Translations under genes and position numbers: made by a program
In this document: in pieces, positions 27,372 through 40,553 of the stretch
How the letters are laid out: the number at the start of each line of letters is the position of its first letter
Position numbering within the stretch: the first letter of the stretch is position 1
The notes under the pieces: model-generated
What the model saw: only the letters and a program-made list of their open reading frames with translations
Told to the model about the DNA's origin: nothing
The model's database searches: none
Assembly: GCA_028292245.1 (NCBI GenBank)
Contig: JAQGMS010000028.1
Span: 1 to 50,135 of the forward strand
Reading direction: 5' to 3'
Length of the DNA stretch: 50,135 bases
Source of the DNA: Ramlibacter sp.
GTDB taxonomy: Bacteria; Pseudomonadota; Gammaproteobacteria; Burkholderiales; Burkholderiaceae_C

Positions 27372-28976
27372 ATGCAGTACCTATCGGAACATCCGGATAG
27401 CAACAAGGGCCTTGCCGCCGGCAGCGGCTCGTTGCCCGACGCACCGAGCCAGCCGCAGATCGACTTCCCCTACACCGGCGACTACCGCATCGACGCCTTG
27501 CTGCAAGGCGCCGACGGGCAAACCGGCCTGGGCGCGTTGGACTTCCGCTGGAACGTCGGCTCCCCCCTGGGGACGCCGGTCACCGTGACGTACAGCTTCA
27601 TGACCGTCAAGCCGTCCTACGGCGGCACCGACGACGCTGACGGCGACACGGGCTTCAGCCGCTTCACGGCGCAGCAGATGACCGCCGCGCGCCAGATCCT
27701 CGGCCAGCTGCAAACCGAACTGGGCATCACCCTCGTCGAAGTCAACGACACGGCCGGCAGCTACGGCCAGATCCGCTTCGGCGACAACCACCAGACCAGT
27801 TCCGCCGGCTACACCTGGCTGCCCGATGGAACCCGGCTGGGCGGCGATGTCTGGATCAACCAGGACATCACGGACAACCTCAATCCCGTTCGCGGCAGCG
27901 ACGCCTGGTCCACCCTGGTCCATGAGATCGGGCACGCGCTGGGCCTGAAGCACCCCGGCAACTACAACGCCGGCACGGTGAGCCAGCCGGCGCCGGGCAA
28001 CTACCTGGGCACGCTGGAGGACAACTACAACTACACGGTGATGTCCTATCGCGACGTGACGGGAGGCCAGGTGCGCGACTGGTACGGCATGTACGACCTG
28101 CTCACGCTGAAGAAACTCTACGGCTCGGGCAACCTGGGCGCGGGCGATTCGACCTACTCTTACATCGACAGCGACGGCGGCGTGCTCAAGATCATCGACG
28201 ATGCGTCGGGCTACGACACGCTCGACCTCTCGGGCGTGAGATTCGAGGGCTCGACGGTCGACATGCATCCCGGCGGCTTCAGCTCGTTCGGGCGCAACGG
28301 CCCGGTGGCGGCATTGAAGAACCTGTCGATCGAACTCACCACCGTGATCGAGAAATTCATCGGCACGTCGCACGACGACAGCGTGACCGGCAACGACGCG
28401 GCCAACCTCTTCGTGCTGGGCGCGGGCACCAACAGCGCCGACGGCGGCGCCGGCATCGACAAGGTGGTCTACACGGGCGCGCGCTTCGGCTACCAGATTT
28501 CGGTGTCGGACGGCGCGGTGCACATCAGCGGCGCAAACGCCGTGGACACGCTGACCAGCGTCGAACGGGTGGACTTCGCCGACCGCAAGCTGGCATTCGA
28601 TATTTCGGGCAACGCGGGCATCACCGCAAAAGTCATCGGTGCGGTCTTTGGCGCCGGCGCCGTGAGCGCGCATCCGGACTATGCGGGTATCGGCCTGTCG
28701 CTCCTGGACGGCGGCATGAGCTACGGCAGCCTGGCGCAGTACGCGATCGACGCGCGGCTGGGCGCCGCGCATACCAACGGCGACGTGGTCACGCTGCTGT
28801 ACACCAATGTCGCCGGCACGGCGCCTCCGCCATCCGACTACGCGAGCTACACCAGCCAACTGGCAAGCGGCGCGCAGACCCAGGCCAGCCTGGGCGTGTA
28901 CGCCGCCGAGCATGAGCTCAACGTGGCCCACGTCGACCTGGTCGGCCTGGCCCAGACCGGTCTGGTCTACGCCTGA
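27372..28976 (+). CDS. secreted M10 (serralysin-like) metalloprotease with C-terminal export module
   Basis: A 534-residue zinc protease without a Sec signal peptide. Catalytic domain: HEIGHALGLKH at residues 184-194 (three zinc histidines and the glutamate) and the Met-turn VMSY at 223-226, then a serralysin-like linker (YDLLTLKKLYG). After one degenerate RTX-type nonapeptide (GGAGIDKVV, about 358-366) comes a module of about 175 residues that is shared with the convergent serine protease: a YTGARFGYQISVSDG part, DTLTSVERVDFAD, then a helical tail with SAHPDYAGIG and GVYAAEHELN. This is as expected for type I export. It begins 6 bases after rfbC, so it may be co-transcribed with the rhamnose genes, an unusual pairing. 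Confidence 0.92.
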   Translation: MQYLSEHPDSNKGLAAGSGSLPDAPSQPQIDFPYTGDYRIDALLQGADGQTGLGALDFRWNVGSPLGTPVTVTYSFMTVKPSYGGTDDADGDTGFSRFTAQQMTAARQILGQLQTELGITLVEVNDTAGSYGQIRFGDNHQTSSAGYTWLPDGTRLGGDVWINQDITDNLNPVRGSDAWSTLVHEIGHALGLKHPGNYNAGTVSQPAPGNYLGTLEDNYNYTVMSYRDVTGGQVRDWYGMYDLLTLKKLYGSGNLGAGDSTYSYIDSDGGVLKIIDDASGYDTLDLSGVRFEGSTVDMHPGGFSSFGRNGPVAALKNLSIELTTVIEKFIGTSHDDSVTGNDAANLFVLGAGTNSADGGAGIDKVVYTGARFGYQISVSDGAVHISGANAVDTLTSVERVDFADRKLAFDISGNAGITAKVIGAVFGAGAVSAHPDYAGIGLSLLDGGMSYGSLAQYAIDARLGAAHTNGDVVTLLYTNVAGTAPPPSDYASYTSQLASGAQTQASLGVYAAEHELNVAHVDLVGLAQTGLVYA

Positions 28977-28984
28977 TCGATCAG
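28973..28984. other. 12-base palindrome containing both convergent stop codons
   Basis: CTGATCGATCAG is a perfect palindrome in the 4-base gap between the two protease genes; the TGA stop of each lies in one half. It is too short and loop-free to be a terminator and may simply be a consequence of the mirrored gene ends. Confidence 0.5.
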
Positions 28985-30366
28985 CCCAGGGGCTCGTAGG
29001 CCAGGCCGCTGCCGGCCAGCCCCGCAAGGCCGATGTTTTCCGCGTTGGGTTGCGCCTCGGCGGCGAACACTCCCAGCGCCGATTGCGAATACTGGCCCGA
29101 TTGCAGCAACCCCACGTAATAGTTGCTTGCGTTGGTTGACGGGCTCTCACCGATCACGTTGGTATAGAGCAGGTCCACCACCGCTGCGTCGGACGGCTGG
29201 GCGCCCAGCCGCGCCTGCAGCGCCAGTTGCACCAGTGCGCCGTAGCTCATGCCGTGATCCAGGTCCCACAGGCCGATGCCCGCATAGTCCGGGTGCGCGC
29301 TCACCGTGCCGGCACCAAAGACCGCGCCGATGATCTTCGCGGCGATGCCTGCGTTGCCGCCCACATCCAGCGCGAGGCCGCCGTCGGCGAACTTCAGGCG
29401 TTCGATCGAAAGCAACCTGTCGGCGCCGTCGCGACCACCGGTGTTGTCCGAGATCGTGAAGGCCGAGTCCGCGAAACCCAGGCTGTATCCGGCGCGCGCA
29501 CCGCTGTAGCCCGCGCTGTCGAGGCCATCGCCGCCGTCGAGCGTGTCGTTGCCGCCCGCGCCCGTCAGCGTGTCGTCGCCCGCACCGGCCGTGACGATGT
29601 TGTCCAGCGCGTCGCCCAACAACAGGTCCGCGCCGGCGGTGCCAGTGATCGCCGACTGCTGGTTGCCCGGCATCAGGCTGTCATTGGCCGCGGTCACGCC
29701 GGCCAGCCAATCCCAGGTGCCCGCGCCGAACAGGGCTGCATAGGTCGACTCGGTGGCGTTGCCGCTGGACAGCACACCGGCGACAAAGGCTTGCCCGTTC
29801 GAGATGTAGAACAGCGGGCCGCCCGAGCCGCCGGGGCCCAGTGACGAACCGACGTCGTACACCCCGTACAGCGCCGAAGCGTCGGCGAAGATCGCTTCGG
29901 ACATCATGCCGACGCCGGCGCCGGGCGGCGTATGCACCGGAAAGCCGGCCGTGGTGCCGGCGAAATCTTCGGGCCGCTGCGCTGCCTGCAACCAGCCGGA
30001 CGCGGCGCCGATCCGGCTGTGCAGGCCGATGACGGCCAGGTCGTTCTGGGCCTCGTCGTCGGTCAGCAAGCCATCGCCGTTGGGGTCCCAGCTGGGGGTG
30101 CGGCCGTCCAGGCTCGCGTGGTCATCGGTGAATGTGCCGAAAGGCGCCTCGAAGGGCGAAGTGTCGGCACCGGGCGTGACGCTCACGCTGGTGGCCCAGC
30201 CGCCATAGTCCGGCTGGAACACCATGTGCATGGCCGTCAGCACGTCGTTGGGGCCGATGACCGTGCCCGAACCGCGCAGCGTGATGCCGCCTGCGAAGGT
30301 GGTCGTGATGTAGCAGACGGCGCTGTAAGGCGCGGTGCTGCGTTCAGCGGCGGTGACTTCCTGCAT
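28981..30366 (-). CDS. secreted trypsin-fold serine protease with RTX repeats and shared export module
   Basis: A 461-residue protease with no Sec signal. The chymotrypsin-fold triad is visible: H47 in VLTAMHMVF, D109 in QNDLAVIGL and S181 in GPGGSGGPLFY. A perfect EF-hand-type calcium loop (DPNGDGLLTDDE, residues 94-105) lies just before the catalytic aspartate. Residues about 245-280 hold RTX-type repeats (GTAGADLLLG, GAGDDTLTG, GGNDTLDGG), and residues about 278-461 form the module shared with the M10 protease. It is the last gene of the type I secretion run, 15 bases after the TolC-like gene, so it is the prime substrate of that exporter. Calcium would fold it only after export. Confidence 0.9.
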   Translation of the reverse strand: MQEVTAAERSTAPYSAVCYITTTFAGGITLRGSGTVIGPNDVLTAMHMVFQPDYGGWATSVSVTPGADTSPFEAPFGTFTDDHASLDGRTPSWDPNGDGLLTDDEAQNDLAVIGLHSRIGAASGWLQAAQRPEDFAGTTAGFPVHTPPGAGVGMMSEAIFADASALYGVYDVGSSLGPGGSGGPLFYISNGQAFVAGVLSSGNATESTYAALFGAGTWDWLAGVTAANDSLMPGNQQSAITGTAGADLLLGDALDNIVTAGAGDDTLTGAGGNDTLDGGDGLDSAGYSGARAGYSLGFADSAFTISDNTGGRDGADRLLSIERLKFADGGLALDVGGNAGIAAKIIGAVFGAGTVSAHPDYAGIGLWDLDHGMSYGALVQLALQARLGAQPSDAAVVDLLYTNVIGESPSTNASNYYVGLLQSGQYSQSALGVFAAEAQPNAENIGLAGLAGSGLAYEPLG

Positions 30367-30381
30367 CGCCGCGCGCGGCCG

Positions 30382-31806
30382 CTAGGGCTTGAGCCACCCG
30401 TTCACTTCGGCGATGGCATCGCTGTCGGCCTCGCCGGCCAGCGCGCGCAAGCGGATGCGCGAGATCATGTAGGTGTAGCGCGCGTTGGCGAGATCGCGCT
30501 GCGCGCTGACCCGCTGCTCTTCCGCGTTGAGGATGTCCACCAGCGTGCGATTGCCGCCTTCGAACGAGCGGCGGTTGGACAGCACCATGACTTCGCTCGA
30601 CCGCACCGCCTGCTCCAGCGCGCGCACCCGGAGCACGCCTTCGGTGATGCCGCGGAACTCCTTTTCCACCCGCATTCCGAGGTCGCGCCGCGTGGCTTCC
30701 AGCGCCTGTTCCGCGCGCTCGAGGTCGGCCACGGCCTGGCGGGTCTGCGAATTGACGTAGCCGCCGGCGAAGATCGGCACGTTCAGCTGCAGGCCGATGG
30801 CCCGGTTGTCGTAGCGCGAGTTGATGCGGGTAACGTTGTCGCTGTCGCTGATGGACCATTGGGCGACCGCGTCCAGCGTGGGCAGGTGCCCCGCGCGGGC
30901 CTTGTCGACCTCGCGCCGCGCGGCTTCGCGCTGGGCCCGCAGGGAAATCAGTTCCGGGCTGCTCAACTCGGCGCGGTCGGTCCAGTCTTCCAGCCGGCCG
31001 GGCGTGGGGCCCGACAGCTGCAGCCGGGTCTCGTCGACCGGCGCCAGGCGCGTGACGGGCACGTTCACCATCACCTGCAATTGCCGCCGCGTGTATTCCA
31101 CGTTCTGGCGAGCCTCGAGTTCCTGCGCCACCGCCATGTCCAGCCTTGCCTGGGCCTCGTCGATGTCGGTGCGCACGCCAGCCCCGCCGGAGAATCGCTT
31201 CTTCGCGGCATCGACCTGGGTCGTGTAGGCCGCCTTTTGCGCGATCACGAGCGTGAGCTGGTCCTGCGCAAGCAGGCCTTCCAGGTAGGCCCCGGCCACG
31301 CGCACCGCGACGTTCTGGGTTTCCTTCTCCAGCACCGCGTTGGCGTCGGCCACCTGCGCCTTGGCCTGCTGGTAGTCGGCGATCTGGTAGGGACGGAAGA
31401 TCGGCTGGCGGATGGTCAGCGACTTGCTGCTGCTGTTGTAGTGCTCGTCCCCGTTCACCGGCCCGGCGAATCCCGGCGTGGTGCTGAACAGGTGGTTTTT
31501 GTTGCGCGATACGCTAGCCGAAACGTTGGGCAGCAATTGGGACAGGGCTTGCGGCAGCCGTTCGCGGCGTGCGTCGGCGGCGGCCCGGGCGGTGCGGATC
31601 ACCGCGTCCTGCTCCAGCGCTGCCTGGTAGGCCTGCGACAGCGTCAGCGGCCCGGCCGCCGCGATCGCCGCGGCAGTCGTGGCGGGCGCCGCCGTCTGGG
31701 CCCAGGCCGGGGCGATTGCGAGAATCGAACCAGCCGCGATCATGCAAGCCGTCGCAACGCGCACGAGACGCAGGCGCCGGGGGCGCGCGGATTTCGATGA
31801 ATTCAT
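30382..31806 (-). CDS. TolC-family outer-membrane channel of a type I secretion system
   Basis: A 474-residue outer-membrane factor with a signal peptide (residues 1-36, cut after AWA). The mature protein begins with an alanine-rich linker, then LTLSQAYQAALEQDAVIRTA, and has two long coiled-coil repeats typical of TolC (for example QVADANAVLEKETQNVAVRV and DLERAEQALEATRRDL). NRRSFEGGNRTLVDILNAEE is the conserved C-terminal repeat signature. It starts 4 bases after the HlyD-like gene stop. The channel spans periplasm and outer membrane for export of the adjacent proteases. Confidence 0.93.
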   Translation of the reverse strand: MNSSKSARPRRLRLVRVATACMIAAGSILAIAPAWAQTAAPATTAAAIAAAGPLTLSQAYQAALEQDAVIRTARAAADARRERLPQALSQLLPNVSASVSRNKNHLFSTTPGFAGPVNGDEHYNSSSKSLTIRQPIFRPYQIADYQQAKAQVADANAVLEKETQNVAVRVAGAYLEGLLAQDQLTLVIAQKAAYTTQVDAAKKRFSGGAGVRTDIDEAQARLDMAVAQELEARQNVEYTRRQLQVMVNVPVTRLAPVDETRLQLSGPTPGRLEDWTDRAELSSPELISLRAQREAARREVDKARAGHLPTLDAVAQWSISDSDNVTRINSRYDNRAIGLQLNVPIFAGGYVNSQTRQAVADLERAEQALEATRRDLGMRVEKEFRGITEGVLRVRALEQAVRSSEVMVLSNRRSFEGGNRTLVDILNAEEQRVSAQRDLANARYTYMISRIRLRALAGEADSDAIAEVNGWLKP

Positions 31807-31810
31807 CGGA

Positions 31811-33190
31811 TCATTCCTCTTTCATGGCGGCCGCGAGCCGCTTGGTCAGCGGGTGCAGCAGGTAAGACAGCAACGAGCGCTCGCCGGTCTTGAGCACGAC
31901 TTCGACCGGCATGCCCGGCTGCAGCACCCGCTTGCCCAGCCTCTTGTAGCCTTCGGGGGTCACCTGGACGCGGGCCAGATAGTACTGGGCGTTGGTTTGC
32001 GGCTCTGTCAGCAAATCGCCCGAAATGGAAACGATCTTCCCATCGACCACCAGCTGCGGCGAGTTGGAGAAGTTGTTGAAGCGCACGTCCACCGGCAAGT
32101 CGGGATGGATGCGGTCGATCAGGTTCGGCGGCACCTTGGTTTCCAGCATCAGCAGTTCGTTGTCCGGCACGATGTCCATCAGCTTCTGGCCGGTCTGGAT
32201 CACCCCGCCCACGGTCTGCACCGTCAGGCCCACCACTTGGCCGGTGGCGGGTGACTTGATGTCGATGCGGCCCAGGTCGTCCGCGTACGCACGAAACTTG
32301 CCCTCGTCCGACTGCACGTCACGGGTGGTGTCGGCCAACTGGGTTTCCACGTCCTTGCGATAGGCCTGCTGCAGGGAGATCATCTTCTGCCGCAGCTCGC
32401 CGACGCTGCGCTGGGCGCGCGTGATGTTGCCCAGCAGCTCGGCGACGGAGCCATTGCTTTCCGCCATCATCCGCTCGAGTTCGAGCTGGCGGTTGCGCGG
32501 CGCATAGCCCTCGCGCACCAGTTCCCGCGTGCTGGCCAATTCGTCGTTCACCAGCTTCATCTGTTCGCGGCGATTGGTCATCATTCCCTGGTAGGCCTGG
32601 ATCAGGCCCTGCTGGCCCGCGATGCTCTCCTGCAGGCCCTGCAGGTCGGCCTGCAGCGACGACTTGCGCGAACGGAACAGCTGGTCCTGCGTCAGGATCT
32701 GGCTCTGGATCAGCGGGTCCTTGCTGGCGCTCTGCAAATCGGGATGGAATGCGATCGCGTTGGCGCCCGTTTGCTCGGCAACCAGCCGCCCCTGCGCGGC
32801 GCGCAGGCCCAGGTAGTGCTGGCGGATCGCCTCGAAGTTGGCGCGCGCGGCGGCCTCGTCGAGCTTGATCAGCAGCTGGCCTTCCTTGACGCGGTCGCCT
32901 TCGCGCACCAGCACTTCCTTGACGATGCCGCCGGTGGGGTGCTGCACCGCCTTGCGCTTGGTGTCGATCGCCACTTGCCCCTGGCTGGGAACGCCCTCGT
33001 CCAGCGGCGCGAACGACGCCCACAGCACGAAGCCGCCCAGGCCGAGGCCCAGGGCCCACAGGCCGATGCGCGCGGCGCGGCTCGACTCGTTGGCCGCGGC
33101 CATGTCGGGATCGGGCGCAACCTGCGCGGGTGCCGGTGCCGGCGGCAGAAGTTTGGAGGAAAGCAGTTTGAGGAGTTCGGGTTTGGCCAT
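31811..33190 (-). CDS. HlyD-family periplasmic adaptor of a type I secretion system
   Basis: A 459-residue membrane fusion protein. It has an N-terminal cytoplasmic tail rich in proline and alanine, one TM helix at about residues 40-60 (IGLWALGLGLGGFVLWASFA), and the lipoyl/biotinyl half-motif GGIVKEVLVREGDRVKEGQL. Long helical hairpins follow, then the C-terminal beta-barrel with GLTVQTVGGVIQTGQKLMDI. The end GMPVEVVLKTGERSLLSYLL matches PrtE/LipC-type adaptors. Its neighbours on either side are the ABC exporter and TolC-like genes. Confidence 0.94.
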   Translation of the reverse strand: MAKPELLKLLSSKLLPPAPAPAQVAPDPDMAAANESSRAARIGLWALGLGLGGFVLWASFAPLDEGVPSQGQVAIDTKRKAVQHPTGGIVKEVLVREGDRVKEGQLLIKLDEAAARANFEAIRQHYLGLRAAQGRLVAEQTGANAIAFHPDLQSASKDPLIQSQILTQDQLFRSRKSSLQADLQGLQESIAGQQGLIQAYQGMMTNRREQMKLVNDELASTRELVREGYAPRNRQLELERMMAESNGSVAELLGNITRAQRSVGELRQKMISLQQAYRKDVETQLADTTRDVQSDEGKFRAYADDLGRIDIKSPATGQVVGLTVQTVGGVIQTGQKLMDIVPDNELLMLETKVPPNLIDRIHPDLPVDVRFNNFSNSPQLVVDGKIVSISGDLLTEPQTNAQYYLARVQVTPEGYKRLGKRVLQPGMPVEVVLKTGERSLLSYLLHPLTKRLAAAMKEE

Positions 33191-33232
33191 GACAGACTCA
33201 ATCGGTAAATATTCGGGTGGGGGATGCGCCGG

Positions 33233-34969
33233 TCACGCCGGCTGGGCCGGACCCAGCGCGGGGTTCGGCGGTTCTTTGCGGGCGGGGGCGGGGCGAAGGC
33301 TGGCCAGCACGGACTCGCGCGGGCCGTCGGCCTTGATGCGCCCGTCTTGCAGCAGCAATATCCGGTCGGCCACTGCGATGGCGCCGGCGCGATGCGTAAT
33401 CAGGAATACCGTCTTGCCCAGGGCCTTGAGTTGCTGCACGGTCTTGACCAGTGCCGCTTCGCCGGCGTCGTCCAGGTTGGCGTTGGGCTCGTCCAGCACC
33501 AGCAGGGCCGGGTCGCCATAGACGGCACGCGCCAGGCCGATGCGCTGGCGCTGGCCGCCCGACAGCAGGTTGCCGGCCTCGCCGATCGGCGTGTCGTAGC
33601 CTTTCGGGAAGCGCAGGATCATCTCGTGCAGGCCGGCGCTGCGCGCGGCGGCGATCACCTTCTCGGAGTCGATCTCGCCGAACCGCGCGATGTTCTCACC
33701 GATCGTGCCTTCGAACAGCTCGATGTCCTGCGGCAGGTAGCCCAGGTGCGGGCCGAGTTCCATGCGGTTCCATCCGGCGATCGGCAGGCCGTCGATCAGG
33801 ACTTCGCCGGACACGTCGGGCCAGATGCCCACCATCACGCGCGCCAAGGTCGATTTGCCCGAACCGGACGGGCCCATGATGGCGGTGACGGTGCCGGCCT
33901 GCGCCGAGAAGCTCACGCCCTTGAGGATGGGCTCGGCGCGGCCGGGGGCGCTGGCGACGACGTCGCGCAGCGTCATCTCGCCGTGAGGCGCGACCCGGCT
34001 CAGGTTGGGATCGCGCTCGGGATACTCGGCCAGCAGGTGCTCCAGACGCTCGAACGCGGCGCGGGTCACGATGTAGCTGCGCCACACGGTGACGAGCTGG
34101 TCGATCGGCGCCAGGGCGCGGTTCATCAACAGGTTGGCGGCGATCATCGCGCCGGGACTCAACTCGCCTTCGATCACCAGCAGCGCGCCGGTGGCCAGCG
34201 ACAGCGACTGCTGGCTGTAGCGGATGAACTTGCTCCAGGCCATCACGCGGCTGCTGACGTGGTGGGCATGCAGGCTCTGGATCAGGTACACGCCCTGCCA
34301 GACGCGCCAGCGCTTGCGCAGGCTGCCCAGCATGCCCATCGATTCGATCACCTCGGAATTGCGCAGTTTGCTTTGCAGGTAGGCGTTGACGTCGCTGTTG
34401 GCCCGGGCCGCGTCTTCCGAAGGCTCGACCGTCTGGCGGTGGCCGAACCAGGCAAGGCTGCCCTGGAAGATAGCGAATACCAGCGCGACCACGCCCAGCA
34501 ACGGGTGCAGGAAGAAGGTCACCGCGATGTAGATCGGCGCCCAGGGCGCGTCGAAGAACGCGAAGATGCCGGTGCCGGTGATGAACTGCCGCAGCGTGAT
34601 CAGGTCGCCGAACGCCCGGGACGGGCTGGCGCTGGACTGGCTCAGGTAGGACTCGAAGCTGGCGTTGAAGACGCGCGTGCTCAGGTGCTCGTCGAACCGC
34701 ATGCCGGCGCGCACCAGGACGCGTGATCGCAGCCATTCGGAAAACGCCATCACGCCGAACAGGAACAGCGTGATCATCGACACGGCCAGCAAGGTGAGCT
34801 CACTCTGGCTGCGCATGACGCGGTCGAAGATCTGCATCATGTAGATGGTGGGCGCCAGCATCAGCAGGTTGGCCACCATGCTGAAGAGGCCGACGAGCAG
34901 GAACTCGCGCCGGAACGCCCAGAGCGCGGCCGTCAATTCGCTGCGCTTGAAGAAGTCAGGTGTATTCAT
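33233..34969 (-). CDS. type I secretion ABC transporter, permease-ATPase fusion (PrtD type), copy 1
   Basis: A 578-residue exporter. The membrane part has about six helices (residues 15-300). The ATPase part has Walker A GPSGSGKSTLARV, signature LSGGQRQRIGLARA, Walker B LLVLDEPNANLDD and the H-loop ITHRAG, all intact. There is no N-terminal C39 peptidase domain, so substrates are not cleaved, as for serralysin exporters. It lies 18 bases after the second ABC gene and 42 before the HlyD-like gene. Confidence 0.95.
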   Translation of the reverse strand: MNTPDFFKRSELTAALWAFRREFLLVGLFSMVANLLMLAPTIYMMQIFDRVMRSQSELTLLAVSMITLFLFGVMAFSEWLRSRVLVRAGMRFDEHLSTRVFNASFESYLSQSSASPSRAFGDLITLRQFITGTGIFAFFDAPWAPIYIAVTFFLHPLLGVVALVFAIFQGSLAWFGHRQTVEPSEDAARANSDVNAYLQSKLRNSEVIESMGMLGSLRKRWRVWQGVYLIQSLHAHHVSSRVMAWSKFIRYSQQSLSLATGALLVIEGELSPGAMIAANLLMNRALAPIDQLVTVWRSYIVTRAAFERLEHLLAEYPERDPNLSRVAPHGEMTLRDVVASAPGRAEPILKGVSFSAQAGTVTAIMGPSGSGKSTLARVMVGIWPDVSGEVLIDGLPIAGWNRMELGPHLGYLPQDIELFEGTIGENIARFGEIDSEKVIAAARSAGLHEMILRFPKGYDTPIGEAGNLLSGGQRQRIGLARAVYGDPALLVLDEPNANLDDAGEAALVKTVQQLKALGKTVFLITHRAGAIAVADRILLLQDGRIKADGPRESVLASLRPAPARKEPPNPALGPAQPA

Positions 34970-34987
34970 CGTTGTACCGAATTTTTG

Positions 34988-36739
34988 TCAGGTCGTGGCA
35001 ACCGCTTGCGAGCCCGCCGCGGCCTGGCGCTGCTGCGCCGTTTGCTGAGCCTGCGCCATGGCCTTGGCCAGCGCGGCCAGCACCTCGTCGCGCGGGCCGA
35101 ACGCCTGCACCTGCCCGTCGCGCAGCACCAGCATCTTGTCCGCCACCGCCAGGATGCTGGTGCGGTGCGTCATCACGATGAAGGTGGTGCCGCGCGCCTT
35201 GAGCTGCTGCACGGCGGCGGCGAGCGCGGCATCACCGGCGTCGTCCAGGCTCGAATTGGGTTCGTCCAGCACCACGAACACCGGGTCGCCGTAGATCGCG
35301 CGGGCCAGTCCGACGCGCTGGCGCTGGCCGCCCGAGAGCATCGCGCCTTCGCGGCCCACGGGGCTGTCGTAGCCCTGCGGCAGCGCCAGGATGAATTCAT
35401 GCAGGCCCACGGCCTGGGCCGCGGCGTGCACCTTCGCGGTTTCCACTTCGCCGAAGCGGGCGATGTTTTCCGCCAGCGTGCCGTCGAACAGCTCGACGTC
35501 CTGGGGCAGGTAGCCCACGTTGGGGCCGAGCTCGGCCTTGTCCCAGGCGAAGACGTCCGCCCCATCCAGCCGCACCTTGCCGCTGGCGGCCGGCCACAGG
35601 CCGGTGAGCACGCGCGCCAAGGTGGTCTTGCCGGAAGCGGAAGGCCCGACCACAGCGAGCACCTCGCCCGGCTGCAGCCCGAAGGCGACGCCCCGCAGGA
35701 TGGCCGAGCCGCTGCCGGGAGCGGCGGCGACCACGTTCTCGGCTTGTACGAAGCCCTTGGGTGCCGGCAACGGCATGGACTTGGCGCCGGCGGGCACCGC
35801 AGCCAGCAGCTGGTCGAGCCGGGACCACGCGTCACGCACCGCCACGGCGCCGCGCCACTGTGCGACGATCATCACCAGCGGCTGGAGAACGCGCGCGCCG
35901 AGCAGCGACGCGATGATCATCATCGAGCCACCGCCGTTCAATTGGTTGTGCAGCAGCAGCCAGGCCGCCAGGCCCAGCAGCCCCGAGCTCATCGTGGTCT
36001 GCAGGAACTTGGTAACGGCCTGGTAGCCGCCGGCGCGGTCCGAGGCCAGGGCCTGCAGCCGCAGGAATTCGCGCTGCTTGTCCATCCAGCGGCGGTGGAT
36101 GTCGCGCTGCATGCCCATCGACTCGATCACCTGCGCGTTGCGCAGCGTGCCGTCGGCGTACACCTGGGCGCCGATGGCGCTGCGGTTGGCGGCCACCAGG
36201 GGCGGCTGCGTGGAACGTTCGTTGAGCAGGCCGACGAAAGTCTGGACGATGGCGCCGACCACTGCCACCCAGCCGAGCACCGGGCTGATCGCGAACAGCA
36301 GCACCAGGAACACCAGCGCGACGGGCGCTTCCATCAGCGCGAGCACCACCGGCGAGTACAGGAAATCGCGCAGCGTGCGGAAGTCGTTCATGGCCTGCGG
36401 CGTGCCACCCTGCTGGCGGCGCAAGTTGGCTGTGAACATGGCGGAAAAGATGCGGTCGCCCAGCTGCCGGTCCAGTTCCAGCCCGGCCGCGTGCAGGATG
36501 TGCGAGCGAGCCCACTCCAGCAGCTCCATCACGGCATAGGCGCCCAGCACCAGCAGCAGCAGCATGAACAAGGTGAAATGGCTGCGGCTGGTGACCACAC
36601 GGTCGTAGACCTCCAGCATGAAGCCGGTGGGCGCGAGCACCAGCAGGCTCGCCACCAGGCTGTACCAGAAGGCCCGCTTGAAATAAGGCCGCAGCAAGGC
36701 CACGGCCTGGGCGAGTTCGGAAGATTGGGGAGATTTCAT
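34988..36739 (-). CDS. type I secretion ABC transporter, permease-ATPase fusion (PrtD type), copy 2
   Basis: A 583-residue protein of the same layout as its neighbour: six helices in the N-terminal half, then Walker A GPSASGKTTLARV, signature LSGGQRQRVGLARA, Walker B VFVVLDEPNSSLDD and H-loop MTHRTS. Since both copies keep all catalytic motifs, they could form a heterodimer or two exporters sharing one adaptor and channel. Its ATG overlaps the stop of the TnpB-like gene by 4 bases (ATGA), so translation of the exporter is coupled to that protein. Confidence 0.95.
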   Translation of the reverse strand: MKSPQSSELAQAVALLRPYFKRAFWYSLVASLLVLAPTGFMLEVYDRVVTSRSHFTLFMLLLLVLGAYAVMELLEWARSHILHAAGLELDRQLGDRIFSAMFTANLRRQQGGTPQAMNDFRTLRDFLYSPVVLALMEAPVALVFLVLLFAISPVLGWVAVVGAIVQTFVGLLNERSTQPPLVAANRSAIGAQVYADGTLRNAQVIESMGMQRDIHRRWMDKQREFLRLQALASDRAGGYQAVTKFLQTTMSSGLLGLAAWLLLHNQLNGGGSMMIIASLLGARVLQPLVMIVAQWRGAVAVRDAWSRLDQLLAAVPAGAKSMPLPAPKGFVQAENVVAAAPGSGSAILRGVAFGLQPGEVLAVVGPSASGKTTLARVLTGLWPAASGKVRLDGADVFAWDKAELGPNVGYLPQDVELFDGTLAENIARFGEVETAKVHAAAQAVGLHEFILALPQGYDSPVGREGAMLSGGQRQRVGLARAIYGDPVFVVLDEPNSSLDDAGDAALAAAVQQLKARGTTFIVMTHRTSILAVADKMLVLRDGQVQAFGPRDEVLAALAKAMAQAQQTAQQRQAAAGSQAVATT

Positions 36740-37350
36740 GCGCCAGCCTCCAGCTGAACATAGGTGGGGATGTCGCCCCGGTGGCGCGGCAAGTCGGCGG
36801 CCTTGACGGCGGCCACGTCCTCTTGCGCTTCATTGAAACTGAACAGCAGCTCGAACACCTGGTCGGGCCGGCGCAACAGGACGATCTCGCGCAGCTTGTG
36901 CTCGTGGAAGCGCACTTCGTCCTTTTTTGCCAAACGTATTTCATACAGCATGCGGCCTCCCAAGGTGTAGATCGACAACACACCGGCCTTGAGGCTCAAC
37001 GTGTGCCGGTCGAAATAGACGGGACTGTTGTCGGCGAAGCGCAGCAATGGCAATTTGGCGCCTTCCAGCTTGGCGTGATGATAAGGACTCTGGGGGTGCT
37101 GGAACACGATCCGGCTGGTGCGCGAAACCGAATAAATCGCATTGCAGATCATCTGCGAGCCCACTGCCGGGAATTGCTCGCGCAGGGATTTGTAGGCCAG
37201 ATGGTGCAGCGTGACCCGGTTCCAGCATCGATGTTGCTGGACCAGCGGAGCGAGTGCGTTACAGACCTGGGCGAAGGAGATTTGCAAGGCCCGCAACCGT
37301 TCGTTCTGCTCCGGAGAAATATTGAGGGCGATCCGCAAGGAGCTATTCAT
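36736..37350 (-). CDS. TnpB-like N-terminal domain protein without RuvC nuclease, heading the export genes
   Basis: A 204-residue protein not assigned by any standard export family. Residues about 15-85 (ALQISFAQVCNALAPLVQQH, TLHHLAYKSLREQFPAVGSQ, then NAIYSVSRT) follow the helical N-terminal part of IS605 OrfB/TnpB. Residues about 100-145 (LPLLRFADNSPVYFDRHTLS and SIYTLGGRMLYEIRL) follow the beta-rich WED-like part, where TnpB proteins have a similar F...V.YD.R...F and TL.GR pattern. A full TnpB is about 370-420 residues with a RuvC nuclease and zinc finger; none of that is present and no remnant follows, because the next gene overlaps the stop. It therefore looks domesticated, not decayed. 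A nucleic-acid-binding or regulatory role is inferred. The recognition is by eye, with no profile search. Confidence 0.6.
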   Translation of the reverse strand: MNSSLRIALNISPEQNERLRALQISFAQVCNALAPLVQQHRCWNRVTLHHLAYKSLREQFPAVGSQMICNAIYSVSRTSRIVFQHPQSPYHHAKLEGAKLPLLRFADNSPVYFDRHTLSLKAGVLSIYTLGGRMLYEIRLAKKDEVRFHEHKLREIVLLRRPDQVFELLFSFNEAQEDVAAVKAADLPRHRGDIPTYVQLEAGA

Positions 37351-37378
37351 ATAGGAGATTCTACACTCCTATATGAAT
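37345..37378. promoter_or_regulatory. perfect 13-bp inverted repeat covering the TnpB-like start codon
   Basis: Arms ATTCATATAGGAG (37345-37357) and CTCCTATATGAAT (37366-37378) match perfectly around the 8-base spacer ATTCTACA. The ATG (37350-37348, minus strand) is within one arm. In the DNA this is a strong operator candidate. In an RNA starting upstream it would hide the start codon and the GGAG in a hairpin. No second copy was seen in the window. Confidence 0.8.
37358..37363 (-). promoter_or_regulatory. candidate -10 element (TAGAAT) for the export operon
   Basis: On the minus strand TAGAAT (5 of 6 bases of the consensus TATAAT) lies in the spacer of the inverted repeat, 7 bases before the ATG. 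The -35 region 17 bases further up (TTCGTA) is weak. If used, transcription would begin at or next to the ATG, giving a leaderless message with the palindrome straddling the promoter. This is a prediction only. Confidence 0.35.
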
Positions 37379-37408
37379 TTTACGAAACTCACGGAAAAAA
37401 AGAGCGTG

Positions 37409-38212
37409 TTACCCCGGCTCAGCAGCCTCCAGGGCCGGAAGCGCAGCCGCGGGATCGGCAACCGCCACGAAGTGCGGATTGAGCACCGGCCGGCCCAGCC
37501 CGTAACGCAGCGGCCGGCCGGCGGCGTCCAGCACGGCGCCCCCGGCCTGTTCCAGCACCGCCTGCGCGGCGGCCGTGTCCCATTGGCAGGTCGGCCCATG
37601 GCGCGGATAGACGTCGGCCTCGCCTTCGGCGATCCGGCAGAACTTCAGGGAGCTTCCAGCCGCAACAAAGCTGTATTCGCATGGCAGCCGCTGCAGCCAG
37701 CGGGTCAGCGCGTCGCTGCCGTGCGACCGGCTGCCCATGACCCGCAACCGCCCGCCGGAAGCGCGCTGCGCCGCCTTCAGCGCCTGCGTTCCCGCCGCCG
37801 TGCGCTTCCAGGCGCCCACCCCCTGCGCCGCGAAATACAGCTGGCCGAGCGCCGGCGCCAGTACCACGCCCGCTACCGGCTCGCCGGCACGGATGAGCGC
37901 GATGTTGACCGTGAATTCGTCGTTGCGCTTCAGGAATTCCTTGGTGCCGTCGAGCGGATCGACCAGGAAGAACACGTCGGCCTCGGCCACGCCGGGCGAT
38001 GCCGACTCTTCCGAAAGAATGAACACGCCCGGAAAGGCCCGCTCCAGCCCCTTGCGGATGACGGCGTCGGCGCGCAGGTCGGCCTCGGTCAGCGGCGAGG
38101 CATCGGGCTTGCTCCATGCGGTGAAATCGCCGGCATACACGTCCATGATTTCGCGGCCGGCCGCTTCCGCAATGCTGCACAGCGTCTCCAGGCCGTTCAG
38201 GTCCAGTTGCAT
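37409..38212 (-). CDS. cysQ: 3'(2'),5'-bisphosphate nucleotidase CysQ (inositol-phosphatase fold)
   Basis: A 267-residue metal-dependent phosphatase that turns PAP into AMP and phosphate. Motifs are in order: the E-E pair in ILSEESASPG (about 65-74), DPLDGTKEF at 85-93 and WDTAAAQAVLEQAGG near the end, which bind magnesium. In sulfate assimilation and sulfotransfer, PAP is an inhibitory by-product. Here two sulfotransferase-like genes lie upstream in the same gene run, so CysQ probably clears their PAP. It starts 8 bases after the epimerase gene and is followed by 58 bases holding the promoter and inverted repeat of the export genes. Confidence 0.93.
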   Translation of the reverse strand: MQLDLNGLETLCSIAEAAGREIMDVYAGDFTAWSKPDASPLTEADLRADAVIRKGLERAFPGVFILSEESASPGVAEADVFFLVDPLDGTKEFLKRNDEFTVNIALIRAGEPVAGVVLAPALGQLYFAAQGVGAWKRTAAGTQALKAAQRASGGRLRVMGSRSHGSDALTRWLQRLPCEYSFVAAGSSLKFCRIAEGEADVYPRHGPTCQWDTAAAQAVLEQAGGAVLDAAGRPLRYGLGRPVLNPHFVAVADPAAALPALEAAEPG

Positions 38213-38220
38213 GGTCCGCG

Positions 38221-39228
38221 CTACTTGCCGTAGTAGCCGCGGTACCAGTCGACGAAGCGGCGCACGCCCTCGGCCACCGGCGTGTCGGGACGGAAACCCA
38301 CCCAATCGTTCAGCGCTCGCACGTCGGCGAAGGTCGCGGGCACGTCGCCAGGCTGCATCGGCAGGTAATTCTTGCGGGCTTCGCGGCCCAAGGCCCGCTC
38401 GAGCGCGCTCACATAGTCCATGAGCGGAGTCGGCTGGTGATTGCCGATGTTGAACACCCGGTACGGCGCGGTGCTGGTGGCAGGGTCGGGCCGCAGGGGA
38501 TCGAACGCCGCGTCGGGTTGCGCGGGCTTGTCCAGCACCCGCACCACGCCCTGGACGATGTCGTCGACATAGGTGAAGTCGCGCACCATCTCGCCGTTGT
38601 TGAAGATGTCGATCGCATCGCCGGCCAGGATGGCGCGGGTGAACAGAAACAGCGCCATGTCGGGCCGGCCCCATGGGCCGTACACGGTGAAGAAGCGCAG
38701 GCCGGTCACCGGCAGCCGGTACAGATGCGCATAAGCGTGCGCCATCAGCTCGTTGGCCTTCTTGGTGGCCGCATACAGGCTGACCGGGTGGTCCACGCCA
38801 TCGTGCTCGGTAAACGGCAGGCGCGCGTTGCCGCCATAGACGCTGGAGGAACTGGCGTAGACCAGGTGCTCCACCGCGTGGCGCCGGCAACCCTCCAGCA
38901 CATTGCCGAAGCCGCCGAGGTTCGCGTCGACGTAGGCCTCGGGATGGGTCAGCGAATGGCGCACGCCGGCCTGGGCGGCCAGGTGGACCACCCGCAGTGG
39001 CTGCTCGCGCGCCCACCAGTCCTGCAATGCCGGACGGTCGGCGATGTCCAGCTTTTCGAAGCGAAAGCCGCCGAACGCCTTGAGGCGATCCAGCCGCGCC
39101 TGCTTGAGCGACACGTCGTAGTAGTCGTTCAGGTTGTCCAGGCCGACCACCTTGTCGCCGCGCTCGAGCAGGCGCAGCGCCGTGTGCATGCCGATGAAAC
39201 CGGCGCAGCCCGTCACCAGGATTTTCAT
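38221..39228 (-). CDS. UDP-glucuronate 4-epimerase-like NAD-dependent epimerase
   Basis: A 335-residue extended [23 protein letters not shown] carries the NAD loop, [18 protein letters not shown] the sugar-nucleotide clamp, [12 protein letters not shown] the family signature, SSSVYGGN and the YAATKKANE pair the catalytic part, with [14 protein letters not shown] after it. This pattern ([24 protein letters not shown]) is that of bacterial UDP-glucuronate 4-epimerases, which give UDP-galacturonate. It overlaps the UDP-glucose dehydrogenase stop by 4 bases, so the two enzymes act in sequence: UDP-glucose to UDP-glucuronate to UDP-galacturonate. Confidence 0.92.
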
Positions 39229-40553
39229 ACGCCGCCGCGCCCGATCGGGAAGTATTCGAAGCCCAGCTCGCGCATCTTCTGCGGCTCGAACAAGTTGCGC
39301 CCGTCGAACACCAGGGGCTGCTTCAGCGAGCGCTTCATCGCCTCGAAGTTCGGGCTGCGGAATACCTTCCACTCGGTCAGGATCAGCAGCGCGTCGGCGT
39401 CTTCCAGCGCCGCCATGGGATCGTCCACCAGCGTGAAGTCGGCCCGCACCCCATGCACGCGGCGCGCCTCGGCCATGGCCGACGGGTCGTGCGCGACCAC
39501 GCTGGCCCCGCGCGACCACAACGCTTCCAGCACCTCGCTGGCGGGCGCTTCGCGCATGTCATCGGTCCCGGGCTTGAAGGCCAGGCCCCACATGGCCAGC
39601 CGCATGCCCGCGAGATCGTTGCCGAGCCGGGCGACGAGCTTGTTGACAAGCACCTGCTTTTGCGCCGCGTTGGCCAGGTCCACGGCTTCGAGCACCCGCA
39701 GCGGGACATCGCTTTCCTGTGCCGTGTGGCGCAGCGCGCGCACGTCCTTCGGAAAACACGAGCCGCCATAGCCGCAGCCGGCATAGAGAAAGTGATAGCC
39801 GATGCGGGGATCGGCGCCGATGCCCTTTCGCACCTGCTCGATGTCGGCGCCCAGCCGCTCCGCGAGGTTCGCCATCTCGTTCATGAACGAGATGCGGGTC
39901 GCGAGCATCGCGTTGGCGGCGTACTTGGTGAGTTCGGCCGAGCGGATGTCCATCAGGACCAGGCGCTCGTGATTGCGCTGGAACGGCGCGTAGAGCTCGC
40001 GCAGGATCTGCGTCGCGCGATCCGAATCGGTGCCGATGACGATCCGGTCGGGCTTCATGAAGTCCTCGACGGCGGCGCCCTCCTTCAGGAATTCCGGATT
40101 CGAGGCCACCGCGAACTCGTGCTTCGTGCCGCGTGCCCGCAGCGCATCGTCGATGGTCTCGCGCACCTTGTCGGCCGTGCCGACTGGGACGGTGGACTTG
40201 TCCACCACCAGCCTGAAGCCGGTCATGTGCTCACCGATGCTCTGCGCGGCCGCCAGCACATGGCTCAAGTCGGCCGAGCCATCCTCCTCGGGCGGAGTGC
40301 CGACGGCGATGAACTGCACCTCGCCGAAATTCACGGCCCGGGCGACGTCGGTGGTGAACGACAAGCGCCCCGCCGCGACATTGCGTTGCACCATCTCCTG
40401 CAGGCCTGGCTCGTAGATCGGGATGCCGCCCGCTTCCAGCGTGGCGATCTTGGCCGCGTCCAGGTCCAGGCAGAGCACGTCGTTGCCCACCTCGGCCAGG
40501 CACGCGCCGGTGACCAGCCCCACATAACCTGTTCCAACCACCGTGAGTTTCAT
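39225..40553 (-). CDS. ugd: UDP-glucose 6-dehydrogenase
   Basis: A 442-residue two-step oxidase making UDP-glucuronate. [20 protein letters not shown] is the NAD loop; [34 protein letters not shown] and [20 protein letters not shown] follow the family; the catalytic cysteine is C266 in [29 protein letters not shown] is in the C-terminal domain. The start at 40553 lies 15 bases after the small membrane protein gene. Confidence 0.96.

Follow-up and report, generated by a model that had tools for sequence, protein, structure and literature searches.

What might a protein that resembles one half of an RNA-guided nuclease be doing at the head of a type I secretion operon? The question is raised by a contig of Ramlibacter sp. 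(JAQGMS010000028.1, assembly GCA_028292245.1), analysed here at its full length of 50,135 nucleotides (the window), in which an open reading frame (ORF) of 204 codons, TNPBL, similar to the N-terminal part of the transposon protein TnpB, shares the tetranucleotide ATGA, stop codon and start codon overlapping, with the gene of the ABC exporter PrtD1. A prediction made from the sequence alone had described this ORF, the overlap with the exporter gene, a helical and a beta part, the absence of RuvC and a palindrome, and all of these observations were confirmed. In the explanation that we prefer, to which we assign a probability of about 0.6, TNPBL would be a lobe of TnpB that reads a target-adjacent motif (TAM) without a guide and that was exapted, together with its operator, as autorepressor of the export operon. 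The homology, the predicted fold, the single origin, the operon linkage, the pattern of conservation and absence of the operator and the site shared with TnpB were all computed.

The descent of TNPBL from TnpB is supported by sequence, predicted structure and phylogeny. TNPBL can be aligned with a full-length TnpB at 40% identity over 166 residues (117 bits), and a profile score of 137.7 bits links it to full-length TnpB; significant scores to TNPBL were obtained with just three of the 15 TnpBs tested, from two genomes. The TNPBL profile found no TnpB among the PDB sequences (three matches, best E 0.17), and the link is established only through structure and an intermediate TnpB clade. In the AlphaFold model (predicted local distance difference test, pLDDT, 86), residues 1-180 match the structures of Cas12f and TnpB in a WED-REC-WED fold, and the predicted helices (13-40, 45-59 and 65-84) and strands (between 102 and 172) fit the helical part at about 15-85 and the beta part at about 100-145 that had been recognized in the sequence. 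In the tree, TNPBL forms one clade, nested inside a TnpB clade. The D-E-D residues of RuvC and the CCCC zinc finger, whose absence had also been noticed, are missing in all 11 TNPBL rows of an alignment with 13 full TnpBs, in which TNPBL ends where RuvC begins. These lines support the view, already put forward in the original prediction, that TNPBL is a complete WED-REC-WED lobe from which the whole nuclease half has been lost; it belongs to the TnpB superfamily by descent and lacks the nuclease domain of the RNA-guided TnpBs. The searches led neither to an unrelated family nor to mere 5' fragments of tnpB without a link to secretion.

The family is large and uniform. Homologues with E ≤ 0.01 number 4464 (4574 candidates scored); among the 120 matches listed, lengths are 185-225 residues throughout and one, P0064 of Caenimonas koreensis, bears the UniRef name "Transposase". 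Across 81 diverse sequences 37 residues are invariant. Library scans gave no significant Pfam or NCBIfam family for TNPBL itself; among 34 aligned homologues, five weakly matched TIGR01765 (transposase N-terminal domain; best E 0.0042) and one guided_TnpB (E 0.018). The "putative anti-sigmaE protein" of NCBIfam, NF010501, weakly matched by 15 of these 34 (best E 0.0025), was counted among the weak unrelated matches, as was PEPCK in a single member, and Kdo_hydroxy was rejected as weak (14.6 bits against a cut-off of 25).

In all 34 genomes examined, the window included, TNPBL is followed immediately by the PrtD-PrtD-HlyD genes of a type I secretion operon, and the expectation that its homologues always precede ABC exporter genes thus holds. 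When 299 genomes of the family were searched with a profile, 30 gave one match each (27 full length, one at a contig end in G124, two weak and partial in G061 and G027), and all 29 loci apart from the window's own were read: PrtD1 comes immediately after the 26 full-length copies and that of G124, and PrtD2, HlyD and TolC are next wherever the contig continues, whereas this is not so for the two partial matches. At the level of the order, 13 of 300 genomes had matches, from which six further stand-alone copies were obtained, all of them before PrtD1-PrtD2-HlyD, with tolC upstream of TNPBL in three (G436, G392 and G431). The named loci L001-L006 show the same arrangement, L003 and L006 apparently repeating G291 and G221.

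The palindrome noticed at the start of TNPBL is real and consists of two copies of the same word in inverted orientation, TTCATATAGGA and TCCTATATGAA, separated by a spacer that contains a -10-like hexamer. Transcription probably begins at the ATG or beside it. The genome of origin (5.8 Mb in 558 contigs, assembly 85.6% complete) holds two exact copies of TTCATATAGGA, both at the TNPBL start, and with one mismatch allowed 14 matches in all, against seven for the reversed control. Of 45 further genomes, 26 have TNPBL and 19 do not; the word occurs in 23 of the former and two of the latter, and the control twice in all. Across 37 TNPBL loci (652 kb), all 54 exact copies fall between -400 and +60 relative to the first gene, at least one being present in 31 of the 37. 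Where tolC comes first (G392 and G431), two direct copies, 16 bp apart, precede tolC. In the operons that lack TNPBL, no site with up to one mismatch was found in any of eight within the 10-16 kb read. None of these counts is to be taken as a probability, since related genomes are not independent. The operator moves with the start of the operon and is missing where TNPBL is missing. The idea that it is only the context of the TNPBL start codon was rejected, as the copies of G392 and G431 precede tolC and in L004, L041, L060 and L062 exact copies lie upstream of the start only. The large offsets of L046 and L166, counted from match residue 1, are no evidence for this rejection, because there too a copy overlaps an in-frame ATG.

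The same word recurs on full-length TnpBs. In a sample of 80 TnpB loci from viral contigs, comprising 12 close to P0228 (47-70% identity) and 68 more distant ones, TTCATATAGGA with up to one mismatch covers the start codon of tnpB in eight of the 12 and in none of the 68; it is exact in L186, L190, L195 and L250 (L190 and L195 being identical over the stretch compared) and has one mismatch in L184, L185, L188 and L189. Its position over the start codon suggests that the full-length TnpBs of the source clade regulate themselves there. IS200/IS605 elements have their target motif, the TAM, at the boundary of the left end. In elements with TnpA before TnpB the left end starts with TTCATAG in six copies of G317, two of G444, three of G390 and one of G914, a seventh copy of G317 (L150) lacking this end; the TAM of ISDra2 is TTGAT (PMC10097598). 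Since TnpBs of the source clade carry the word on their start codon and related transposons begin with TTCAT, the operator would have come with the protein. The IS200/IS605-type left ends of G317, G390, G444 and G914 share TTCATAGAA, followed by an AGGAAAC-like stretch and a hairpin, and the right end GTTTAC is common to G317, G444 and G346. TTCAT as the general TAM of the wider clade is unsupported, 13 of the 80 viral loci having it before a hairpin. Close TnpBs are rare: none in 320 other genomes of the class at E ≤ 1e-25, one in 398 genomes of the phylum at E ≤ 1e-60, and G346 alone among four genomes of its family. No publication linking TnpB, TTCAT and TAM was found in the literature searched, which omits most subscription journals.

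The surfaces retained by TNPBL were compared between 11 TNPBL and 13 TnpB sequences of the clade. At residues 41-60 (REC helix 2) the identity between the groups is 0.69, 91% of the within-group mean, and at residues 134-172 (late WED) it falls to 0.16, 29% of that mean, despite an identity of 0.66 within TnpB. Fourteen residues are invariant in all 24 rows (W43, N44, R45, V46, L48, H49, H50, Y53, R57, G64, S65, Q66, M67 and C69), of which C69 is aligned in the profile alignment with Q80 of ISDra2, a TAM-reading residue (PMC10097598); by our reading, beside an alignment gap, K76 and F77 of ISDra2 would correspond to S65 and Q66, and Y52 and S56 to helix 2. As the omegaRNA of TnpB is held by WED and RuvC, the latter making up half of the binding surface (PMC10097598), and the late WED is the most diverged part, the RNA-facing side of TNPBL seems to have diverged while the DNA-facing side was kept.

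Control of the export genes by TNPBL, which we infer from these sequences, would proceed as follows. The portion of TnpB retained in TNPBL would be the one that reads duplex DNA next to the target. Without RNA, TNPBL molecules would bind the copies of TTCATATAGGA on both sides of the -10 box and over the start; once bound, they would block transcription of the TNPBL-prtD-prtD-hlyD-tolC operon. The operator would have been inherited together with the protein from the source TnpB clade.

Among the alternatives, the one that survives best, unlikely as we consider it, is that another regulator acts at the operator and that TNPBL has its task elsewhere. It might, for instance, bind RNA or assist assembly, serving the exporter or its mRNA, and would be kept next to PrtD1 by translational coupling. 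TNPBL does adjoin PrtD1 even in operons with tolC first. However, the operator is gone where TNPBL is gone, it is nearly private to the TNPBL operon in the genomes searched, and the word recurs on TnpB genes in transposon settings that have no exporter.

Slightly less probable still is an RNA-guided repressor of the type of TldR, in which a small guide RNA would direct TNPBL to the operator, TTCAT serving as TAM and ATAGGA as a 6-nt seed. According to passages of the TldR report, guides as short as 6 nt suffice (PMC13418256), so that five plus six nucleotides could account for the length of the operator, and the WED part that helps to hold the omegaRNA is partly retained. On the other hand, RuvC and with it half of the omegaRNA-binding surface is gone, and the late WED is the most diverged region. 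Limited searches revealed no guide or omegaRNA encoded with TNPBL: outside the operator, ATAGGA has no recurrent context (18 occurrences in 32 loci); TGTTTACATAGGA, which joins the ancestral end of the omegaRNA to ATAGGA, has no exact match among the matches listed (complete for 15 of 23 genomes); no Rfam family reaches the gathering score in 28000-40000; and the 3' end of TNPBL shows no elevated synonymous constraint. If up to two mismatches are tolerated, TGTTTACATAGGA matches 218 times and its control 172 times. Each new insertion gives a transposon a different guide; the presence of the same word on TnpB start codons thus points to reading by the protein alone. Of the two mechanisms originally offered, the putative binding of the palindrome is favoured by the conservation of the operator, and the guide RNA found no support in these limited searches.

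Least credible by far is a functionless, decaying tnpB remnant: TNPBL does break off at the point where RuvC would start, and it is absent from some operons, but the invariant residues, the thousands of homologues in one length class, the linkage to the exporter in every genome examined and a genome of origin without any TnpB match (E ≤ 0.01) speak against it, and homologue number, linkage and this genome likewise rule out a chance ORF or tnpB debris.

Several results weigh against the autorepressor that we prefer. A close PrtD1 (E ≤ 1e-150) is encoded in 50 of the 299 family genomes and 22 of these 50 have no TNPBL match (eight of the 22 were read), so that TNPBL is dispensable for the exporter. 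Six loci (L005, L054, L059, L061, L165 and L167) have, by reading, variant sites only, with TTCATAT or its complement, and the copies of TTCATATAGGA differ in orientation and spacing, unlike the fixed site of a homodimer. Four of the 12 close TnpBs lack a site within one mismatch, and the 47% cut between close and distant was chosen after the sites had been seen. The nearest TnpB in a genome, that of G346, has GTCAT where its relatives carry TTCAT, and TTCAT is not enriched before the hairpins of the 80 viral loci, ranking 18 among pentamers in the stricter count.

Some loci depart from the usual arrangement. Upstream of PrtD1 in G167 and G245 (L175 and L176) TNPBL has apparently been lost internally, with the promoter and the first and last codons seemingly left; the operator arms have decayed from AGGA/TCCT and, by eye, three tRNA-like sequences lie just upstream. 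Another genome of the same genus, G051, has TNPBL. The partial matches of G061 (L064, about 9780) and G027 (L065, minus strand) are open frames of 109 and 103 residues that resemble only the REC helices (GQTHEHLAxRTLKExFPxL); their neighbours are unrelated genes, and no secretion genes were found in the vicinity. On plasmids the only match was a full TnpB of Methylomarinovum, in whose stretch neither a TTCATA end nor the operator was found. A regulon of export substrates was discarded, as the exact off-operon copies read (L119, L120, L128 and L133) are not at RTX genes; a second extra copy in G205 is outside those read. G015, a genome without TNPBL, has a single exact TTCATATAGGA in L128 (position 1500, minus strand); 19 nt downstream of it begins a short ORF whose product looks, by eye, like a ParD-type antitoxin.

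TNPBL can be compared with several known systems. Autorepressors that head export operons are usually encoded by the first gene, with the operator over the -10 box and the start. TNPBL shares this layout, but has no helix-turn-helix family in the libraries searched, and its operator copies vary in order and spacing. With the TnpBs of IS200/IS605 elements (ISDra2 and the P0228 clade) it has in common the WED-REC-WED sequence and predicted fold, the helix-2 motif W-N-R-V-x-L-H-H and, for close members, the word on the start codon, whereas RuvC, the zinc finger and a surrounding transposon are missing and the late WED has diverged. Cas12f (second protomer) and other Cas12 proteins provide the closest solved structures, but they are full nucleases with CRISPR guides and about 6-15% identity among the matches listed. 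TldR is likewise a domesticated TnpB beside non-transposon genes, in a stable link as seen for TNPBL, a predicted repressor with a TAM-like element in its target; unlike TldR, which according to passages of its report retains RuvC in inactivated form and is directed against other genes by a guide RNA (PMC13418256), TNPBL lacks the whole RuvC domain, has no detected guide and is associated with one fixed 11-mer at its own operon. The domesticated relatives of TnpB treated in these passages, TldR and Cas12, have both an RNA guide and the RuvC fold; the TNPBL family lacks the fold and has no detected guide. No publication joining a truncated TnpB, RuvC and type I secretion was found in the literature searched, and the papers there that combine TnpB with type I secretion name TnpB only once each.

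We give even odds to the broader proposal of a new class of transcription factors, in which the TAM-reading lobe of TnpB alone would recognize an extended TAM-like TTCATATAGGA in duplex DNA without guide or nuclease, TnpBs of the source clade would be autoregulating, and lobe and operator would have been exapted together. If this is true, TAM reading would be the work of a DNA-binding module that can be separated from the rest of TnpB, a protein alone recognizing about 11 bp, and some TnpBs would act as their own repressors. TNPBL makes the DNA reading of TnpB before guide pairing directly testable, and it is a candidate regulator for the double-PrtD type I secretion operon that recurs in Burkholderiales.

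Table 1. Features of the TNPBL operon in the window and parts of the TNPBL protein.
Feature	Position	Strand	Remarks
TNPBL	36736..37350	-	204 residues, ATG start; RuvC-less TnpB REC lobe
TNPBL, WED strand 1	residues about 4-8
TNPBL, REC helices	residues 13-84
TNPBL, WED barrel	residues 102-172
TNPBL, C-terminal strand	residues 195-201		conserved PxYVxVE, after a variable linker
Upstream operator copy TTCATATAGGA	37367..37377	-	sequence, genome search
Second operator copy TTCATATAGGA, inverted	37346..37356	+	overlies TNPBL start codon 37348-37350
-10-like hexamer TAGAAT between both copies	37358..37363	-	same layout in homologous loci
PrtD1, PrtD-type type I secretion ABC exporter 1	34988..36739	-	TIGR01842, 627.6 bits against cut-off 510
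PrtD2, PrtD-type type I secretion ABC exporter 2	33233..34969	-	TIGR01842
HlyD-type membrane fusion protein	31811..33190	-	TIGR01843
TolC-type outer membrane protein	30382..31806	-	TIGR01844
Trypsin-like protein with RTX repeat and DUF4214	28981..30366	-	possible exporter substrate

The set of ABC, HlyD and TolC components in the window is complete, TIGR01842 (twice), TIGR01843 and TIGR01844 all scoring above their cut-offs. Synonymous identity is raised, without explanation, at codons 41-60 of PrtD1 (29 loci, z 2.0-2.4) and weakly also inside TNPBL (z up to 1.9). The two different tandem PrtD genes recur in TNPBL loci wherever the contig continues, which suggests that the exporter is heterodimeric.
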